The position numbers and the translations under genes were made by a program. Under the pieces are notes generated by a model. The model had not been told where the DNA came from. It was given only the letters and a program-made list of their open reading frames with translations, and made no database searches. From NCBI RefSeq assembly GCF_026283965.1, contig NZ_JAPDPD010000031.1, positions 1 through 33,333 on the forward strand: a stretch of DNA of 33,333 nt. Direction: 5' to 3'. Below, one piece after another: positions 7,384 through 22,488 of this stretch (its first letter is position 1; the number at the start of each line of letters is the position of its first letter). This stretch comes from Dyella subtropica. Its GTDB lineage: Bacteria; Pseudomonadota; Gammaproteobacteria; Xanthomonadales; Rhodanobacteraceae.

Positions 7384-7749
7384 ATGATCGTGCAGATGAC
7401 TGGCCTGCCGCCCGGGGTGCTCGGCTTCACCGCTCACAACCAGGTCACCGCCAAGGATTACGAGCAGGTGATCGTGCCGGATATCGAAGCGGCGTTTGCC
7501 ATCAATCCCAAGCTGCGGGTGATGTTCCATACCGACGAGGATTTCACCGGTTTCGACGCCGGTGCGATGTGGGACGACGCCAAGCTGGGTTTCCGCCATT
7601 TCAGCGGCTGGGAGCGCGCAGCGCTGGTGACCGATGTCGGCTGGATACGGACGCTGGCCAGGGCGTTGGGGTTCCTCTCGCCCGGTCAGTTCCGGCTGTT
7701 CCACAGCGCGGAACTGGACGATGCCAGGGCCTGGGTCTGCACCACCTGA
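7384..7749 (+). CDS. SpoIIAA-like (STAS-fold) protein
   Basis: The 121-residue product opens with MIVQMTGLPPGVLGFTAHNQVTAKDYEQVIVPDIEAAF and contains HTDEDFTGFDAGAMWDDAKLGFRHFSGWERAALVTDVGWIR, the pattern of the SpoIIAA-like family of proteobacterial and cyanobacterial proteins with a STAS-type fold. Their role is unclear; anti-sigma-antagonist function is not demonstrated and the usual phosphorylatable serine region is not obvious. The protein is cytoplasmic with no signal or membrane segment. It lies 83 bases after recJ in the same direction and directly upstream of the asnB leader, with no obvious terminator between, so some read-through into the leader is possible. Confidence 0.85.
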   Translation: MIVQMTGLPPGVLGFTAHNQVTAKDYEQVIVPDIEAAFAINPKLRVMFHTDEDFTGFDAGAMWDDAKLGFRHFSGWERAALVTDVGWIRTLARALGFLSPGQFRLFHSAELDDARAWVCTT

Positions 7750-7762
7750 TCCTAATTTCCGC

Positions 7763-7791
7763 TTGCGTGTAGCCGCGGGCTGTGCTTAAAG
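7763..7791 (+). promoter_or_regulatory. Candidate promoter of the asnB leader transcript
   Basis: A TTGCGT -35-like box (7763-7768) and a CTTAAA or TTAAAG -10-like box (7785-7791) are spaced 16-17 bases apart. Transcription would start around 7797-7800, at or within a few bases of the leader-peptide ATG at 7800, giving a leaderless or nearly leaderless message. No Shine-Dalgarno sequence precedes that ATG, which fits. The prediction is by eye only. Confidence 0.45.
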
Positions 7792-7799
7792 TCGCGGCC

Positions 7800-7931
7800 A
7801 TGACTGCTTTTCCTATTGCCCATCTGCGCACGTTCTACGCCGCTTCCGCGGCGAGCGTCTGCATGGCTGCGAACGGCCTGAACAATAACGCCAATAACAA
7901 TCTCCGCTTCGACGGGTGGGCCGGCGTGTAG
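7800..7931 (+). CDS. Asparagine-rich leader peptide of asnB
   Basis: This 43-codon frame is too short for routine gene calling. Residues 25-34 read NGLNNNANNN: seven asparagine codons (AAC or AAT at 7872, 7881, 7884, 7887, 7893, 7896 and 7899) in ten positions, directly before an intrinsic terminator and the asparagine synthetase gene. This is the signature of an attenuation leader peptide that measures charged tRNA-Asn by ribosome stalling. The stop TAG (7929-7931) places a non-stalled ribosome over the antiterminator arm at 7915-7922. The ATG at 7800 has no Shine-Dalgarno sequence; an in-frame ATG at 7863 would keep all Asn codons. A perfect 6-bp hairpin (7838-7853) inside the frame could act as a pause site. 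The sequence is seen; the regulatory role is inferred from the classical his/leu/thr leader model. Confidence 0.85.
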   Translation: MTAFPIAHLRTFYAASAASVCMAANGLNNNANNNLRFDGWAGV

Positions 7932-7988
7932 ACACGAAAAGTCTCCAGATTTCACGCAAAGGGCCCGCCAACCGCGGGCCCTTTTTTT
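7915..7988 (+). promoter_or_regulatory. asnB attenuator: competing antiterminator and terminator
   Basis: Arm 7915-7922 (GGTGGGCC) pairs with 7962-7969 (GGCCCGCC), 8 bp including one G-U. It is extended inside by GCGTG (7924-7928) with CACGC (7953-7957) and AGAC (7930-7933) with GTCT (7941-7944). This antiterminator consumes the left arm of the terminator at 7961-7981. A protector pairing, CGGCC (7874-7878) with GGCCG (7919-7923), would free the terminator when no ribosome covers the Asn codons. Stalling at the Asn run masks 7874-7878 and favours the antiterminator; a ribosome reaching the stop codon at 7929 covers 7915-7922 and favours termination. All three alternative pairings are present in the sequence; the energetics were not computed. 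Confidence 0.8.
7958..7988 (+). terminator. Intrinsic terminator in the asnB leader
   Basis: GGGCCCGC (7961-7968) and GCGGGCCC (7974-7981) form a perfect 8-bp GC-only stem with a 5-base loop, extended by AAA/TTT, and a run of seven T follows (7982-7988). It lies 27 bases after the leader-peptide stop and 52 bases before asnB, with asnB the only gene it can control. Confidence 0.93.
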
Positions 7989-8039
7989 GTTTCAGCGCGC
8001 TGTTTTGCGCGTCATCAACCCTTCGAGGAGTGCAAGACC

Positions 8040-9722
8040 ATGTGTTCCATCTTCGGCATGTTCGACCTGCAGCCCGGTGACGACTTGGCCGCGCTACGCC
8101 GCCAGGCGCTGGAGCTGTCGCAGCGCCAGCGTCATCGTGGTCCCGACTGGAGCGGCGTGTTCGTCGATGCCGGCGTGATCCTGGTGCACGAGCGTCTGGC
8201 CATCGTGGACCCGGCCAGCGGTGCGCAGCCGCTCCGTTCGCGCGACGAGTCGCTGGCCCTGGCGGTGAACGGCGAGATCTACAACCACCGCGAGCTGCGC
8301 GCGGCCAGCGATTACGACTTCACCACCGGCTCCGATTGCGAGGTGATCAACGCGTTGTATCGCGAGCAAGGGGCGGCCGAATTCATCAAACATGGCCTGC
8401 CGCAGCTCAACGGCATCTTCGCCTTTGCGCTCTGGGACAGTGAGGCACAGCGCTACCTCATTGCACGCGACCCTCTCGGCGTTTGCCCGCTGTATTGGGG
8501 GCACGATGGAGAAGGACGCCTGTGCGTGGCATCGGAGATGAAGGCCTTGGCGGGGGTGTGCGCGGATGTCGATACGTTCCCGCCCGGCCACGTCTACGAC
8601 AGCGCCACCGGCGAACTGACCCGTTACTACCACAAGCGCTGGCGCGACTATGAGGCAACGCGCGGACACGACATCGCACCCGCCGCATTGCGCGAAGCCT
8701 TCGAACAGGCCGTGCATCGCCAATTGATGACGGACGTGCCTTACGGCGTGCTGCTCTCGGGCGGTTTGGATTCGTCGCTGGTGGCCGCCTGCGCCGCCCG
8801 ATTCGCTCGCGAACGGATCGAGGACGACGATCGCACCGAGGCCTGGTGGCCGCGTCTGCATTCTTTTGCCATCGGGCTGGAAGGTTCGCCCGACCTGGCC
8901 GCCGCCAAAGTTGCCGCCGACGCGCTGGGCACCGTGCATCACGGCTTCGTCTACACCTTCTGGGAGGGGCTGGATGCGTTGCCCGAAGTGATCCGCCACA
9001 TCGAGACCTACGACGTCACCACCATTCGCGCCTCCACTCCGATGTACCTGTTGGCTCGCCGTATCAAGGCCATGGGCGTGAAGATGGTGCTATCGGGCGA
9101 GGGCTCGGACGAGATCTTTGGTGGCTACCTGTACTTCCACAAGGCGCCTTCCGCCGAAGCCTTTCACGAGGAAACCGTGCGCAAGCTCGACGCGTTGCAC
9201 AGCTACGACTGCCTACGTGCGAACAAGGCCATGATGGCCTGGGGCGTGGAGGCTCGCGTGCCGTTCCTCGATCTGGAATTCATGGATGTGGCAATGGGCC
9301 TGGACGCCAAATACAAAATGGCCGGGCAGGGCCGCATCGAAAAGGCGGTGCTGCGTGAGGCTTTCCAAGGCGCATTGCCGGATTCGATTCTGTGGCGCCA
9401 GAAAGAACAATTCAGCGACGGCGTAGGCTATGGCTGGATCGATGGATTGAAAGCACATGCGGAGCAGGCCATCAGCGATCGCGAATTCGCCGCGGCGGCC
9501 ACGCGTTTCCCCCACAACCCACCGGCCACCAAAGAGGCCTACCTGTACCGCCGTATCTTCGAACAGCACTTCCCGGGAGCGGCTTGCGCAGCCACCGTAC
9601 CTGGGGGCAAATCGATCGCCTGTTCCTCGCCGGCTGCGCTGGCCTGGGACCCGGCCTTTGCCAACGCGGCAGATCCTTCGGGGCGCGCGGTGCGTGGCGT
9701 GCACCAGCAAGCGCTGGCGTAG
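8040..9722 (+). CDS. asnB: Asparagine synthetase B (glutamine-hydrolysing)
   Basis: The 560-residue product has the two-domain architecture of AsnB. The N-terminal class II glutaminase starts MCSIFGMF, whose Cys2 becomes the N-terminal nucleophile, with RHRGPDWSG, LAIVDP and NGEIYNH. The synthetase domain carries the pyrophosphate loop LLSGGLDSS (about residues 238-246) and GEGSDEIFGGYLYFHKAP. It makes asparagine from aspartate, ATP and glutamine in the cytoplasm. Length is close to E. coli AsnB (554). The ATG at 8040 is preceded by a good ribosome-binding site (GAGGAG at 8024-8029). The upstream leader at 7800-7988 predicts control by asparagine supply through attenuation. It is monocistronic, facing a convergent gene across a 130-base spacer. 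Confidence 0.97.
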   Translation: MCSIFGMFDLQPGDDLAALRRQALELSQRQRHRGPDWSGVFVDAGVILVHERLAIVDPASGAQPLRSRDESLALAVNGEIYNHRELRAASDYDFTTGSDCEVINALYREQGAAEFIKHGLPQLNGIFAFALWDSEAQRYLIARDPLGVCPLYWGHDGEGRLCVASEMKALAGVCADVDTFPPGHVYDSATGELTRYYHKRWRDYEATRGHDIAPAALREAFEQAVHRQLMTDVPYGVLLSGGLDSSLVAACAARFARERIEDDDRTEAWWPRLHSFAIGLEGSPDLAAAKVAADALGTVHHGFVYTFWEGLDALPEVIRHIETYDVTTIRASTPMYLLARRIKAMGVKMVLSGEGSDEIFGGYLYFHKAPSAEAFHEETVRKLDALHSYDCLRANKAMMAWGVEARVPFLDLEFMDVAMGLDAKYKMAGQGRIEKAVLREAFQGALPDSILWRQKEQFSDGVGYGWIDGLKAHAEQAISDREFAAAATRFPHNPPATKEAYLYRRIFEQHFPGAACAATVPGGKSIACSSPAALAWDPAFANAADPSGRAVRGVHQQALA

Positions 9723-17962: not shown

Positions 17963-20900
17963 ATGCGCCTGACCACGATCAAACTCGCCGGTTTCAAATC
18001 CTTCGTCGACCCGACCACCCTGCATTTGCCGACCAATATGACTGGCGTGGTGGGTCCGAACGGTTGCGGCAAATCCAACATCATCGATGCGATCCGCTGG
18101 GTGATGGGCGAGAGCGCCGCCAGCCGCCTGCGCGGCGATTCGCTGACCGACGTGATCTTCTCCGGCTCCAATTCGCGCAAGCCAGTCGGGCAGGCGACGG
18201 TCGAGCTGATCTTCGACAACAGCGACGGCACCATCCAGGGCGAGTACGGCCAGTACGCCGAGATCTCGGTGAAGCGCCAGGTGACGCGCGATGGTCAGTC
18301 CGCGTACTTCCTCAATGGTGCCCGTTGCCGTCGTCGCGACATCACCGATCTGTTCCTCGGCACCGGTCTGGGTCCGCGCAGCTACTCGATCATCGAGCAG
18401 GGCATGATCAGCCAGATCGTGGAAGCCGCGCCGGAAGAGCTGCGCGTCCATCTGGAAGAAGCCGCCGGCATCTCCAAGTACAAAGAGCGCCGCAAGGAAA
18501 CCGAGAGCCGCATCAAGTCCACCCGCGAAAATCTCGATCGCGTGAAAGACGTGCGCGATGAGGTGGACAAGCAGCTCGAACACCTCAATCGCCAGGCCCG
18601 CGCGGCCGAGCGCTGGAAGGCGCTGAAAGAAGAACAGAACCGCAAGGAAGCCGAGCTGCGCGCACTGGAATACCGCGGCATCAAGGGTCAGCACGATGGC
18701 GAAGGCGCGGGCCTTTCCGCCGCCGAGGTCGAGATCGAGAAACACGTGGCCGAGCAGCGCCACGTCGAAGCCCAGCTGGAAAGTGTGCGCGAACGCCACA
18801 CCTCGGCCAGCGAGCATTTGAACGTTGTGCAGGGCGAGGTCTACAAGGTCGGCGCCGAAATCGCCCGCGTCGAACAGCAGGTGCGCTTCAACCGCGAAAC
18901 CGCGGATCGTCTGACGCGCGCTCATGCCGATACCGAACGCGAGCACGCCGAGCTGGCCGCGCACATCGCCACCGACCGCGATCAGATCGAAACCCTGCGT
19001 ATGGCGCTGGCCGAAGGCGAGCCCAAACTGGAAGCCCTGCAGCAAATGCAGGACGACACCGCCGACGCGCAACGCGACACCGAAACCAAGCTCGCCGATT
19101 GGCAGCAACGCTGGGACAGCTACACGCGCACCGCCGGCGAAGCCAGCCGCGCCGCCGAGGTGGAGCGCACCAAGCTCGCCTACCTCGACCGCCAGTCGAT
19201 CGACCTCTCCAAGCGCCGCGAGGCGCTGGAGGCGGAACAGAAAGCCACCGACGTCGCCGCGCTCGACGCCGCGTCGGAACAGCTGCACCTCGAACACGAC
19301 ACCCAGCGCGAGCGCGTCGAATCGCTCGGCAGCCTGCTCGATCAGCACAAGCTGAGTCACGAGAAGGTGCTGGACGAAGAGCGCCAGGTGCAATCCACGC
19401 TCAACGAGGCGCGTCAGCAACTGCAGACCGCACGCGGCCGTCAGGCTTCGCTGGAAGCGCTACAACACGCCGCGCTGGGCCAGGAAGAAAGCGCCGCCAG
19501 CGGTTGGTTGGCGCGCCTGGGTCTGGACAAGTCGCGCCGTCTCGGCGAAGCGTTGCAAGTGGAAGCGGGCTGGGAAACCGCCGTGGAAACCGTCCTGGCC
19601 GGCTTCCTCGACAGCGTGCTGGTGGATAGCTCGCACGCGCTGGCCGCAGAGTTTGGTGGCGTAGAAAACGCCGACATCGCCTTGCTCGATGCGGCCGAGG
19701 GCGGCGTCAATACCGCCGGCACGCTTGCCGCGCATGTGCGCGGCCCGGCGGCAGCCGTAGCCATCCTCAGTCACGTGCTTACCGCAGAGCATTTGCAGGA
19801 AGCCCATCAGCGCGTCGCTTCACTGTCGGCGCTTGCGCCATACCAGTCGGTGATGACGCGCACCGGTGAATGGCTGGGGCCGGGCTGGGCGCGTGTGCGT
19901 CGCGCGCAAGGCAACCAGGTCGGCGTACTGGCTCGCGAACGCGAGATGCGCCTGCTGGCCGAGCAGATCGAAACGCTGGAAGCACGCATCGAGGAAGCCA
20001 CCGGCCAGCTCGACGACCTGCGCACCCGCAAGTTCGAAGCCGAGCGTGCGCGCGACGATGCACAACGCGAGCTCTACAACGCTCATCGCCGCCAGTCGGA
20101 ACTGGCCGGTCAGCTGCAAAGCCATCGCGGCAAGATGGAAACCGCGCGCGCTCGCTCTGAAAAGGTGGCCGGCGAACTCAGCGACCTGATCAATCAGCTC
20201 GACGAGCTGCAGGGACAGATACGCGAGGCGAGGGCACGGCTGGACGAGTCCGTCGGCAACATGGGCGACCTCGAAGACCAGCGCCGCGAACTGGAAAACG
20301 AGCGGCGCGCCTTGCTGGAAGCCCGCGAAGAAGCTCGCATGAACGCGCGTGAGGCGGCCGACCAGTCGCACGCACTCGCCTTGGGTCTGGAATCCAAGCG
20401 GTCCGCGCTGAGCTCGCTGGAGCAGTCGCTATCGCGCATGGACACGCAGATCCGCCAGATCGAAGCGCGCCGCACCGAGATCACCGAACAGCTGGCCGCC
20501 GGCTCCGATCCTATTGCGGAGCTGGAAGCCGAGCGCCAGACCTATCTCGATCAGCGCCTGTTGGTCGACAAGCAACTGGTCGAGGCGCGCCGCGCCTTGG
20601 AAGACTGCGACGCCGAGTTCCGCCGCCTGGAACAGGAGCGTCAGCGCACCGAGCAAAGCCTCAACCGCCTGCGCGAAAGCCTGTCAGAGAAGCGCCTGGC
20701 CGCGCAGGCTCTGCACCTGCGTGCACAGCAGCTGGCCGAAGCCATCACGGCGTCCGGCCTGGAGCTGGAACCCTTGCTGGCCGAACTCGCTGAAGACGCC
20801 GACGCGGGCCAGTGGCGTTCGCAGCTGGGCGACATTGCGCAGAAGATCCAGCGTTTGGAACCGGTGAACCTCGCTGCGATCCAGGAGCATGCCGAGCAGA

Positions 20901-21472
20901 GCGAGCGTAAAAACTACCTCGACAACCAGCTGGCCGACCTGACCAGCGCGATGGAAACGCTGGAGGGCGCGATCAAGAAGATCGACCGCGAGACCCGCCA
21001 GCGTTTCAAGGAAACCTTCGACCGCGTCAACGCCGGTGTGCAGGAACTGTTCCCGCGCCTGTTCGGTGGTGGCCATGCCTATCTGGAACTCACCGGCGAC
21101 GATCTGCTCGATACCGGCGTGGCCATCATGGCGCGTCCGCCCGGCAAGCGCGTCTCCAACATCACGCTGCTGTCCGGCGGCGAGAAAGCGCTCACCGCGG
21201 TGTCGCTGGTGTTCGCCATCTTCGGCCTCAACCCCGCGCCGTTCTGTTTGCTGGACGAGGTGGACGCGCCGCTGGACGAGGCCAACGTGGGCCGCTTCTC
21301 CAACATGGTGAAGGAGATGAGCGAGAAGGTGCAGTTCATTTTTGTCAGTCACAACAAGGCCACCATGGAGGCGGCCTCGCAGCTTTGCGGCGTGACCATG
21401 CGCGAACCGGGCGTGTCGCGTCTGGTGCAGGTCGACCTGGCCGAAGCCGCTAAACTCGCTGGCGCAGCCTGA
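17963..21472 (+). CDS. smc: Chromosome segregation protein SMC
   Basis: The 1169-residue product is a full-length bacterial SMC, the core ATPase of the condensin that compacts and segregates the nucleoid. The N-terminal head has Walker A GPNGCGKSN (residues 31-39) after the invariant MRLTTIKLAGFKSF. Two long coiled-coil arms flank a hinge of roughly residues 510-660 (GLDKSRRLGEALQVEAGWETAVETVLAGFLDSVLV). The C-terminal head has the signature LLSGGEKALTAVSL and Walker B FCLLDEVDAPLDEAN, ending in FVSHNKATME. The presence of SMC rather than MukBEF fits Xanthomonadales. An AT-richer stretch at 17822-17880 may hold its promoter, but no clear box pair is seen. zipA follows after 11 bases. Confidence 0.97.
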   Translation: MRLTTIKLAGFKSFVDPTTLHLPTNMTGVVGPNGCGKSNIIDAIRWVMGESAASRLRGDSLTDVIFSGSNSRKPVGQATVELIFDNSDGTIQGEYGQYAEISVKRQVTRDGQSAYFLNGARCRRRDITDLFLGTGLGPRSYSIIEQGMISQIVEAAPEELRVHLEEAAGISKYKERRKETESRIKSTRENLDRVKDVRDEVDKQLEHLNRQARAAERWKALKEEQNRKEAELRALEYRGIKGQHDGEGAGLSAAEVEIEKHVAEQRHVEAQLESVRERHTSASEHLNVVQGEVYKVGAEIARVEQQVRFNRETADRLTRAHADTEREHAELAAHIATDRDQIETLRMALAEGEPKLEALQQMQDDTADAQRDTETKLADWQQRWDSYTRTAGEASRAAEVERTKLAYLDRQSIDLSKRREALEAEQKATDVAALDAASEQLHLEHDTQRERVESLGSLLDQHKLSHEKVLDEERQVQSTLNEARQQLQTARGRQASLEALQHAALGQEESAASGWLARLGLDKSRRLGEALQVEAGWETAVETVLAGFLDSVLVDSSHALAAEFGGVENADIALLDAAEGGVNTAGTLAAHVRGPAAAVAILSHVLTAEHLQEAHQRVASLSALAPYQSVMTRTGEWLGPGWARVRRAQGNQVGVLAREREMRLLAEQIETLEARIEEATGQLDDLRTRKFEAERARDDAQRELYNAHRRQSELAGQLQSHRGKMETARARSEKVAGELSDLINQLDELQGQIREARARLDESVGNMGDLEDQRRELENERRALLEAREEARMNAREAADQSHALALGLESKRSALSSLEQSLSRMDTQIRQIEARRTEITEQLAAGSDPIAELEAERQTYLDQRLLVDKQLVEARRALEDCDAEFRRLEQERQRTEQSLNRLRESLSEKRLAAQALHLRAQQLAEAITASGLELEPLLAELAEDADAGQWRSQLGDIAQKIQRLEPVNLAAIQEHAEQSERKNYLDNQLADLTSAMETLEGAIKKIDRETRQRFKETFDRVNAGVQELFPRLFGGGHAYLELTGDDLLDTGVAIMARPPGKRVSNITLLSGGEKALTAVSLVFAIFGLNPAPFCLLDEVDAPLDEANVGRFSNMVKEMSEKVQFIFVSHNKATMEAASQLCGVTMREPGVSRLVQVDLAEAAKLAGAA

Positions 21473-21483
21473 GGAGAATCATC

Positions 21484-22488
21484 ATGACCCAGCAACCCAT
21501 GCTTGCTTTTGCCTGGAACCCTGCGGTGGGCATTCCGCTGCTGATTGTCGGCGCCATCGTGCTCGCCCTGATCTGGCTGTTTGGCCAGCCGAGGAAAGAG
21601 CAGGGCAAGCGTCGCGTTATGCCTGGAACGGGCAGTGAGGAACGCCGCGAGCCGACCTTCGGCGATGCCGAAGTGACCGGCGACGAACCCTCTTTCAGCG
21701 CACGCGATGATTTTCGCCTCGATGTCTTGAGCGAGCCCACGCCGCAGCAAGGTGAGCTGGATATGGGGCTGCGCCAGGAACTCGAGCGCCTGGGCGCTAC
21801 GCTTTCCGGCGAGCGGGTTGCGCCGGCACCGCTGGGTAAGCCATCAGGCACCGCCGCGTCGATCGTCGAAGCCCTGCGCGCGCCGCCGGAGCCATTCCAC
21901 GCTGACTCGCTTGGCGCATCGGTGCCGGCGAAAACCGCGCCTATGCCGGAGCCGGTGGCGCGCATTTCCGCACCTGCTCCCGCACCGGCTGCACCGCGCG
22001 TGCCGCCGCGCTCCGACCTCGGCCGTCGCCCGACCCAACTGCCGGTCGAACGCATCGTCACCTTGTTCGTGGTGGCCCGCGAAGGTACGGCGTTCAACGG
22101 CGCCGACTTGATCGTGGCGGCGGAAAAGGCCGGCCTGGAATTCGGTGACATGGGCATCTATCACCGCCTGGTCGACGGCAAGCGCGAGCAGGGGCCGATC
22201 TTCAGCGTCGCCAATATGCTCAAGCCAGGCAACTTCGACCTGAGCCGTCTCGACACCTTGCGCACGCCTGGCCTGAGCTTCTTCATGACCCTGCCAGCAC
22301 CCATCCCTGCACTCGATGCCTGGGATGCCATGCTCCCCACCGCCCAGCGTCTGGCCGAGCTGCTGGATGGCCAGGTGCTGGACGAAGAGCGCAACGCCCT
22401 GGGCCGTCAGCGCATCGCTCATATCCGCGACGAACTGCGCGGTTGGGACCGCGACCACGAAGGCAAAGAGATCATTTTCGGCCGCTGA
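21484..22488 (+). CDS. zipA: Cell division protein ZipA
   Basis: The 334-residue product has the ZipA layout: a short N-terminal periplasmic/membrane part (PLLIVGAIVLALIWLFG, about residues 19-35), a charged then Pro/Ala-rich linker (about 40-190), and a C-terminal FtsZ-binding domain. That domain includes RIVTLFVVAREGTAFNGADLIVAAEKAGLEFGDMGIYHRLV, GPIFSVANMLKPGNFDL and TPGLSFFMTLP. It anchors the FtsZ ring to the inner membrane. The gene is 11 bases after smc, probably in one transcript. In many gammaproteobacteria ligA follows zipA; here it does not. A 12-base tandem repeat (GATTTCGGTCCG twice, 22487-22510) begins at the stop codon. Confidence 0.95.
   Translation: MTQQPMLAFAWNPAVGIPLLIVGAIVLALIWLFGQPRKEQGKRRVMPGTGSEERREPTFGDAEVTGDEPSFSARDDFRLDVLSEPTPQQGELDMGLRQELERLGATLSGERVAPAPLGKPSGTAASIVEALRAPPEPFHADSLGASVPAKTAPMPEPVARISAPAPAPAAPRVPPRSDLGRRPTQLPVERIVTLFVVAREGTAFNGADLIVAAEKAGLEFGDMGIYHRLVDGKREQGPIFSVANMLKPGNFDLSRLDTLRTPGLSFFMTLPAPIPALDAWDAMLPTAQRLAELLDGQVLDEERNALGRQRIAHIRDELRGWDRDHEGKEIIFGR

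Follow-up and report, generated by a model that had tools for sequence, protein, structure and literature searches.

Upstream of asnB in Dyella subtropica lies what is very likely a ribosome-mediated transcription attenuator, one that senses charged tRNA-Asn and controls the asparagine synthase gene. It is found in positions 1–33333 of contig NZ_JAPDPD010000031.1 (the window, whose numbering is used throughout), part of a genome of 4.95 Mb. Reading 5′ to 3′, the order is a SpoIIAA-like open reading frame (ORF), a probable promoter, a leader ORF, a hairpin with a T run, and asnB. The last (8040–9722, + strand) encodes a glutamine-hydrolysing asparagine synthase B: its product matches the NF006949 equivalog at 855 bits against a cut-off of 499, and its best named relatives are those of Dyella sp. 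OK004 (93%), then other Dyella and Rhodanobacter. Dyella is placed in the Rhodanobacteraceae, order Lysobacterales. Four features of the attenuator class occur together here, namely a codon run for one amino acid, a matching downstream gene, an intrinsic terminator and an antiterminator; the transcription start, the stalling of the ribosome, the read-through and Asn shortage as the signal we infer. The coordinates given in an earlier note for the leader, the stem and asnB were all correct on re-check.

Is the Asn run a matter of chance? The 43-codon ORF (7800–7931, + strand), announced in that note together with its seven Asn codons in ten and borne out by translation, begins with the ATG at 7800, ends with the TAG at 7929–7931 and reads MTAFPIAHLRTFYAASAASVCMAANGLNNNANNNLRFDGWAGV. 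The putative regulatory codons occupy 7872–7901 (+ strand), the Asn codons starting at 7872, 7881, 7884, 7887, 7893, 7896 and 7899. In 20,000 dinucleotide shuffles of 7750–8039, read in the three forward frames, the maximum was five Asn in ten codons, attained in six shuffles, against the seven observed. The string AAYAAYAAYNNNAAYAAYAAY, six Asn codons around one other codon, has a single occurrence in the genome, which is this leader, and its backwards control has none. Together with the conservation test described below, these results rule out a chance Asn run.

Across 156 leaders, Asn accounts for 27.8% of the letters in the final 22 codons; its share is 29.3% in frame and drops to 0.1 and 0.2% in the two alternative frames. 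Both codons are used, AAC 508 times and AAT 453 times. Over 379 close pairs, which are not independent, Asn codons changed 199, 179 and 359 times at positions 1, 2 and 3, while the changes over all codons are nearly even (953, 759 and 970), as expected because the RNA arm is also under constraint. The rest of the peptide, apart from the Asn run and the end that encodes the arm, is highly variable among relatives. An asparaginyl-tRNA synthetase (AsnRS) scores over the cut-off in this genome and in 58 of 61 from the order, so that charging of tRNA-Asn can follow free Asn; formation of Asn-tRNA by transamidation for want of AsnRS is ruled out, asnS being present.

How widely is the unit shared? 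A search for AsnB succeeded in 151 of the 197 genomes from the organism's own family and in 216 of the 299 from the order. Shared upstream stretches, such as L003 = L032, lead us to take the family labelled f1 for the organism's own Rhodanobacteraceae; f2 is most likely the Xanthomonadaceae. On the f1 side, L001, 30 loci, 80 named loci and 60 further stretches supplied 132 distinct upstream regions; three were too short (L071, L073 and L157), seven precede a divergent AsnB (L165–L171, 63–67% identity), and the 122 usable ones have an AsnB identity of 77% or more. The order sample of 40 stretches comprised 32 from f2, three from f3 and five from f10 (70–72%). With 26 further divergent loci (f2 two, f5 one, f6 one, f8 14, f10 six, f11 one, another family one) and 17 additional ones from f8, the divergent loci, with AsnB at 61–72%, came to 55; two of them have little upstream DNA (L251, 325 nt; L265, 95 nt).

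A joint rule was applied to all loci because the first pass, which took the most Asn-rich ORF and then a hairpin, favours success. It demands an ORF with at least three Asn in 12 codons, a hairpin of at least 8 bp with five G–C pairs that begins 10–40 nt past the stop codon, and at least four T in 8 nt. The rule finds the unit at 122/122 f1, 32/32 f2 and 3/3 f3 loci, at one of the 55 divergent loci (L238) and in none of 157 shuffled f1–f3 regions. Raising the setting to four Asn gives 116, 30, 3, 1 and 0, and five Asn with five T gives 98, 26, 2, 0 and 0. Asn codons are therefore kept in orthologous leaders, a point on which the earlier note's reading depended, although their number varies, down to three in 12. 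Nine loci in f1 or f2 genomes with a divergent AsnB (L239, L242 and L165–L171; 63–67%) all lack the unit, so that in this set the unit tracks the AsnB lineage. In f10, L237 has a terminator before asnB and no Asn-rich ORF ahead of it; L218 passed the Asn threshold through an unrelated ORF lying over 400 nt upstream, was excluded by hand and fails the joint rule.

Searches in the wider class were less informative. A covariance model of the f1 leader (71 rows) gave one strong match in 274 genomes of the class, the organism's own leader at 102.6 bits, the next scoring 36.7. Many matches span the terminator part only, and the f2 asnB leaders of G197 and G208 are not among the matches listed; the model was dropped because it is not sensitive beyond f1. 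AsnB itself yielded four matches at E 1e-100 in 252 genomes of the class, too few for the leader to be traced there by gene.

Two loci deserve separate mention. In L238 (f8, asnB 66%), the sole positive among 31 f8 loci examined, an ORF, MFAIYNTINTTNNRLLRSAGSF, starts 144 nt before asnB and has Asn at four of eight codons; it comes with a downstream terminator and a strand 2 complementarity that 11 of 500 shuffles equal, and its ATG lies farther from the promoter-like sequence than in other leaders. It is possibly a remnant of an ancestral unit, or possibly of separate origin. In L094 (Rhodanobacteraceae bacterium ZG21-1), for which alone a longer upstream stretch was used and which is left out of the sets of 121 f1 leaders, the attenuator is intact and ends about 380 nt before asnB; a tandem array of a 47-nt unit in 5.3 copies (1121–1373 of that stretch) fills the space from about 380 to 128 nt before the gene.

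The intrinsic terminator extends over 7958–7988 (+ strand). What had been described as a perfect GC stem with seven T was found as an 11-bp stem (7958–7968 with 7974–7984) and a T run at 7982–7988. A scan of the 501-base region returned this one site (7958–7984, 11 pairs, T run to 7988), but shuffles of the region hold 0.8 terminator-like sites each (s.d. 1.0), so the scan alone is no evidence. The fold of 7800–7990 has −68.5 kcal/mol (z −2.06), with 7 of 200 shuffles equally good. Comparison across leaders is more telling: in f1 (71 of 121 rows) the homologous stem has 98.3% of cells paired and 78 double-change cells, and in f2 and f3 together (33 of 35 rows) 93.7% and 57, with 0 of 500 shuffles in either set doing as well. 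RNAalifold on the f2 and f3 alignment draws the terminator only.

The competing structure joins strand 2, the 5′ arm of the antiterminator (7915–7928, + strand), to strand 3, its 3′ arm (7953–7969, + strand). Strand 2 overlaps the last leader codons, and 7958–7968 of strand 3 doubles as the 5′ arm of the terminator, whose 3′ arm is strand 4. The antiterminator excludes the terminator, its 5′ arm falling within the end of the leader ORF or directly behind it. The pairs proposed beforehand, 7915–7922 with 7962–7969 and 7924–7928 with 7953–7957, all form, one as T–G. The mean energy of strand 2 with strand 3 is −27.3 kcal/mol in f1 and −26.2 kcal/mol in f2 and f3, versus −16.6 and −18.9 kcal/mol with strand 2 shuffled. 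Swapping strands between f1 and the other two families (30 random f1 leaders versus 35) gives −19.0 and −21.1 kcal/mol, a loss of 6 to 7. The energy lies beyond the 5th percentile of the leader's own shuffles in 111/121 f1 and 23/35 f2 and f3 leaders.

Do the arms change together? In the same alignments, 87.7% of antiterminator cells are paired in f1 versus 28.4–51.5% when the arms are slid, and 80.3% versus 31.1–43.8% in f2 and f3; in the latter set both the 18 double-change cells and the covariation score are reached in 0 of 500 shuffles. The f1 arms are GGTGGGCC or GGCGGGCC paired with GGCCCGCC; much of f2 has GATGCGGG with CCCGCATC, and others have CGCGGG with CCCGCG. In L205 and L208, CCTGC replaces CCCGC in strand 3 and strand 2 has GCAGG, the change in L208 appearing in strand 4 as well. 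Terminator sequences differ by family and the antiterminator arm shifts along with them, an observation that weighs more than the shuffle tests because kinship alone lets related sequences exceed shuffles. The co-variation of the arms that the earlier note had called for thus appears between families and within f2 and f3; within f1 it is not clear. We conclude that the element is very probably a well-conserved, functional, Asn-specific attenuator of asnB.

Where would the RNA begin? A TTGC lies 35–37 nt 5′ of an in-frame leader ATG in 136/156 leaders (121 from f1, 35 from f2 and f3) and 32–42 nt 5′ in 145/156; shuffled stretches have TTGC 32–42 nt before the place of the ATG in 46/780 cases, a comparison that somewhat favours the leaders, since these were free to use any in-frame ATG and the control had one place each. 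In the window the probable −35 element is TTGCGT (7763–7768, + strand) and the probable −10 element TAAAGT (7787–7792, + strand), for which relatives have TTTAGT and similar; a simple promoter scan of the 501-base region around the leader reported no promoter. In the alignments the −10-like element ends about 7–8 nt before the leader ATG. In the usual promoter geometry the −10 element sets the transcription start by its distance, which would put the start at 7800 or no more than one or two bases away. Given this near-fixed spacing, the leader is very probably leaderless, that is, the 5′ end of its RNA lies at or beside the ATG at 7800.

The proposed mechanism is as follows. RNA polymerase would start at about the leader ATG, and a ribosome would load on the 5′ end of the RNA and trail the polymerase. 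When Asn-tRNA is plentiful, the ribosome would reach the stop codon at 7929–7931 and cover strand 2; strand 3 would then pair with strand 4, and transcription would terminate near 7988. When Asn-tRNA is scarce, the ribosome would stall within 7872–7901 and leave strand 2 unoccupied, so that strand 2 could pair with strand 3 before strand 4 exists and transcription could enter asnB.

The spacing suits such a switch. Counted from the first base of the run's last Asn codon, the arm starts after a median of 11 nt in f1 (range 3–21) and 12 nt in f2 and f3 (9–27); its other end was limited by the chosen cut to 6 nt past the stop codon and is not independent evidence. If the A site held the last Asn codon of the window's leader, the ribosome's footprint would extend to about 7911, just short of the arm at 7915; a ribosome at the stop codon would cover the arm. 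With the span of the ribosome at Asn masked and strand 4 still absent, the pairing of strands 2 and 3 has a mean probability of at least 0.4 in 66/121 f1 and 34/35 f2 and f3 leaders. With the ribosome at the stop codon, 0/156 leaders have this pairing; strand 2 is then masked, so that the result follows by construction and is no independent evidence. In the absence of a ribosome the antiterminator forms before strand 4 in 90/121 f1 and 22/35 f2 and f3 leaders. Since no conserved protector was found either (see below), a leader that is not being translated might allow read-through unless translation begins immediately, which initiation at a leaderless 5′ end could favour.

Several observations weigh against the attenuator. 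With the ribosome at the Asn codons, the probability before strand 4 stays below 0.4 in 55/121 f1 leaders, and once the RNA is complete strand 3 pairs with strand 4 at a probability of at least 0.4 in 119/121 f1 and 31/35 f2 and f3 leaders at equilibrium. Because the finished RNA favours the terminator at equilibrium in either ribosome state, the switch must act by folding order during transcription, as is assumed for other attenuators. A strict T-run rule detects a terminator in only 71/132 f1 regions, and T runs are weak (four or five T in the best 8 nt) in 32/121 f1 and 7/35 other leaders. Some leaders have only three Asn in 12 codons, 6/122 in f1 and 2/32 in f2 failing at four. The energy of strands 2 and 3 does not pass the 5th percentile of the leader's own shuffles in 10/121 f1 and 12/35 f2 and f3 leaders. 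The f1 antiterminator is without clear covariation, its double-change cells being reached in 88, its score in 49 and its paired cells in 130 of 500 shuffles; with so little variation in the shared core, f1 counts neither for nor against the coupling of the arms. In f2 and f3 further pair types of the antiterminator are below the shuffles, 500 of 500 being as high.

The 5-bp protector helix 7874–7878/7919–7923 is complementary as the earlier note had it, but it is not conserved in relatives: 51.7% of its cells are paired (71 rows), versus 52.8% in shuffles and 58.3% after a slide by +3. Strand 2 of 76 leaders (41 f1, 35 f2 and f3) pairs upstream at 0.61 and 0.58, versus 0.65 and 0.57 with the upstream part shuffled. 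With pairing at the level of shuffles, the protector is not supported as a conserved element, a verdict on this named 1:2 helix taken singly. A pause or protector hairpin (1:2) is present in the trp and his archetypes; such a hairpin is not known to be obligatory for attenuators. The attenuator as first conceived thus retains the support of the kept Asn codons and the coupled arms, and loses its protector.

Could the same device serve another purpose? Any ribosome stalled ahead of strand 2 would free it, given the spacing, and many codons precede the Asn run. The attenuator might then answer a general slowing of translation, by antibiotics or by a broad shortage of amino acids, with the Asn codons as a convenient stall site. 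There would be no need for one particular amino acid in a general sensor, however, and the Asn run recurs in three families, in a single frame, before a gene of Asn biosynthesis; we regard general slowing as improbable. A little less probable still is that the leader RNA or its Asn-rich peptide is the functional product, as a small RNA or small protein, with control of asnB secondary. The rnTrpL and peTrpL of Sinorhizobium provide a precedent (PMC7298713). The unit, of about 190 nt, has its own probable promoter and ORF, and in L094 it is intact in spite of its distance from asnB and the intervening array. Yet the peptide varies greatly outside the Asn run and the arm-coding end, and the unit sits before asnB with a matching antiterminator.

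It is scarcely credible that the hairpin simply ends transcription coming from upstream and that the Asn run is an A-rich stretch arisen by chance. The SpoIIAA-like ORF (7384–7749, on the same + strand) does end 50 nt upstream of the leader, and shuffled versions of the region fairly often contain terminator-like sites. But a probable promoter separates this gene from the hairpin, strands 2 and 3 match, the Asn run exceeds its shuffle controls and occurs once in the genome, and conservation already contradicts such an origin.

What is classical in this attenuator, and what is new? Ribosome-mediated attenuators are known for the trp, his, leu, ilv, thr and phe leaders. T-box riboswitches act on asn genes of Firmicutes and bind the tRNA directly, without translation. 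The signal at asnB would in principle be the same, the charging of tRNA-Asn, but the proposed mechanism depends on translation, and the leader has no T-box match: Rfam gave no family at gathering score in the window, and T-box is absent from the seven matches at E up to 10 in 7700–8100. Two Rfam leader families scored under their gathering cut-offs, Trp_leader (17.2 of 41 bits) and Thr_leader (15.9 of 55 bits).

The amino-acid operon attenuators of Proteobacteria, a class described in PMC7298713, resemble the asnB leader in several respects: a short ORF is rich in codons for the amino acid being made, an antiterminator and an intrinsic terminator exclude each other, and a biosynthetic gene lies downstream. 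The asnB leader differs in using Asn and in that no conserved protector stem was found. The same text describes a leaderless trpL leader with transcription attenuation, which resembles ours in the leader ATG at the 5′ end of the RNA; it concerns Trp and Alphaproteobacteria, whereas ours concerns Asn and has a 5′ end deduced from promoter spacing. Candidate Trp, Cys, Leu and Ilv leader peptides of Actinobacteria were likewise predicted by genome comparison (PMC1262725), for other amino acids; the words ‘asparagine’, ‘asnB’ and ‘Asn’ occur 0 times in that text. In the accessible text of an attenuator survey (PMC2965389) ‘asparagine’ occurs 0 times and ‘Asn’ once, as an author's initials. Corynebacterium glutamicum has leader peptides at trpE, leuA, ilvB and aroF, according to PMC3890552, and a Caulobacter paper (PMC4117421) has ‘asparagine’ 0 times in the portion seen. 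AsnB2 of Xanthomonas campestris pv. vesicatoria has ratios of 1.0 in a small-RNA study (PMC3771888), whose passage on AsnB2 holds nothing on attenuation around it. Word searches of open-access papers, whose lists were in part ranked extracts and which took in passages of PMC5864092, returned no Asn leader or attenuator for asnB; an earlier mention is possible, for example in the comparative study of proteobacterial attenuators (Vitreschak 2004) or in the T-box survey. The mechanism is thus classical and its Asn specificity apparently new as far as the literature was searched. We are inclined to think that this is the first Asn-specific ribosome-mediated attenuator: old, present in at least three families of Lysobacterales (Xanthomonadales), leaderless, two-state and free of a protector, with the ribosome in the role that a T-box plays elsewhere.

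Elsewhere in the window, 888–1925 (− strand) encodes a peptidyl-arginine deiminase family protein (PF04371), and 17963–22488 (+ strand) holds an SMC-like ATPase ORF followed by a ZipA-like ORF.

If the attenuator operates as proposed, asparagine joins the amino acids whose biosynthetic gene is gated at transcription by translating ribosomes, in at least three families, one of them probably the family to which Xanthomonas and Stenotrophomonas belong. A short leader RNA is predicted and should be visible in RNA-seq data. The unit is compact, with a likely leaderless start and stems that differ in sequence yet change together, and would therefore offer a clean test bed for whether attenuation can do without a pause hairpin and without a Shine–Dalgarno sequence.

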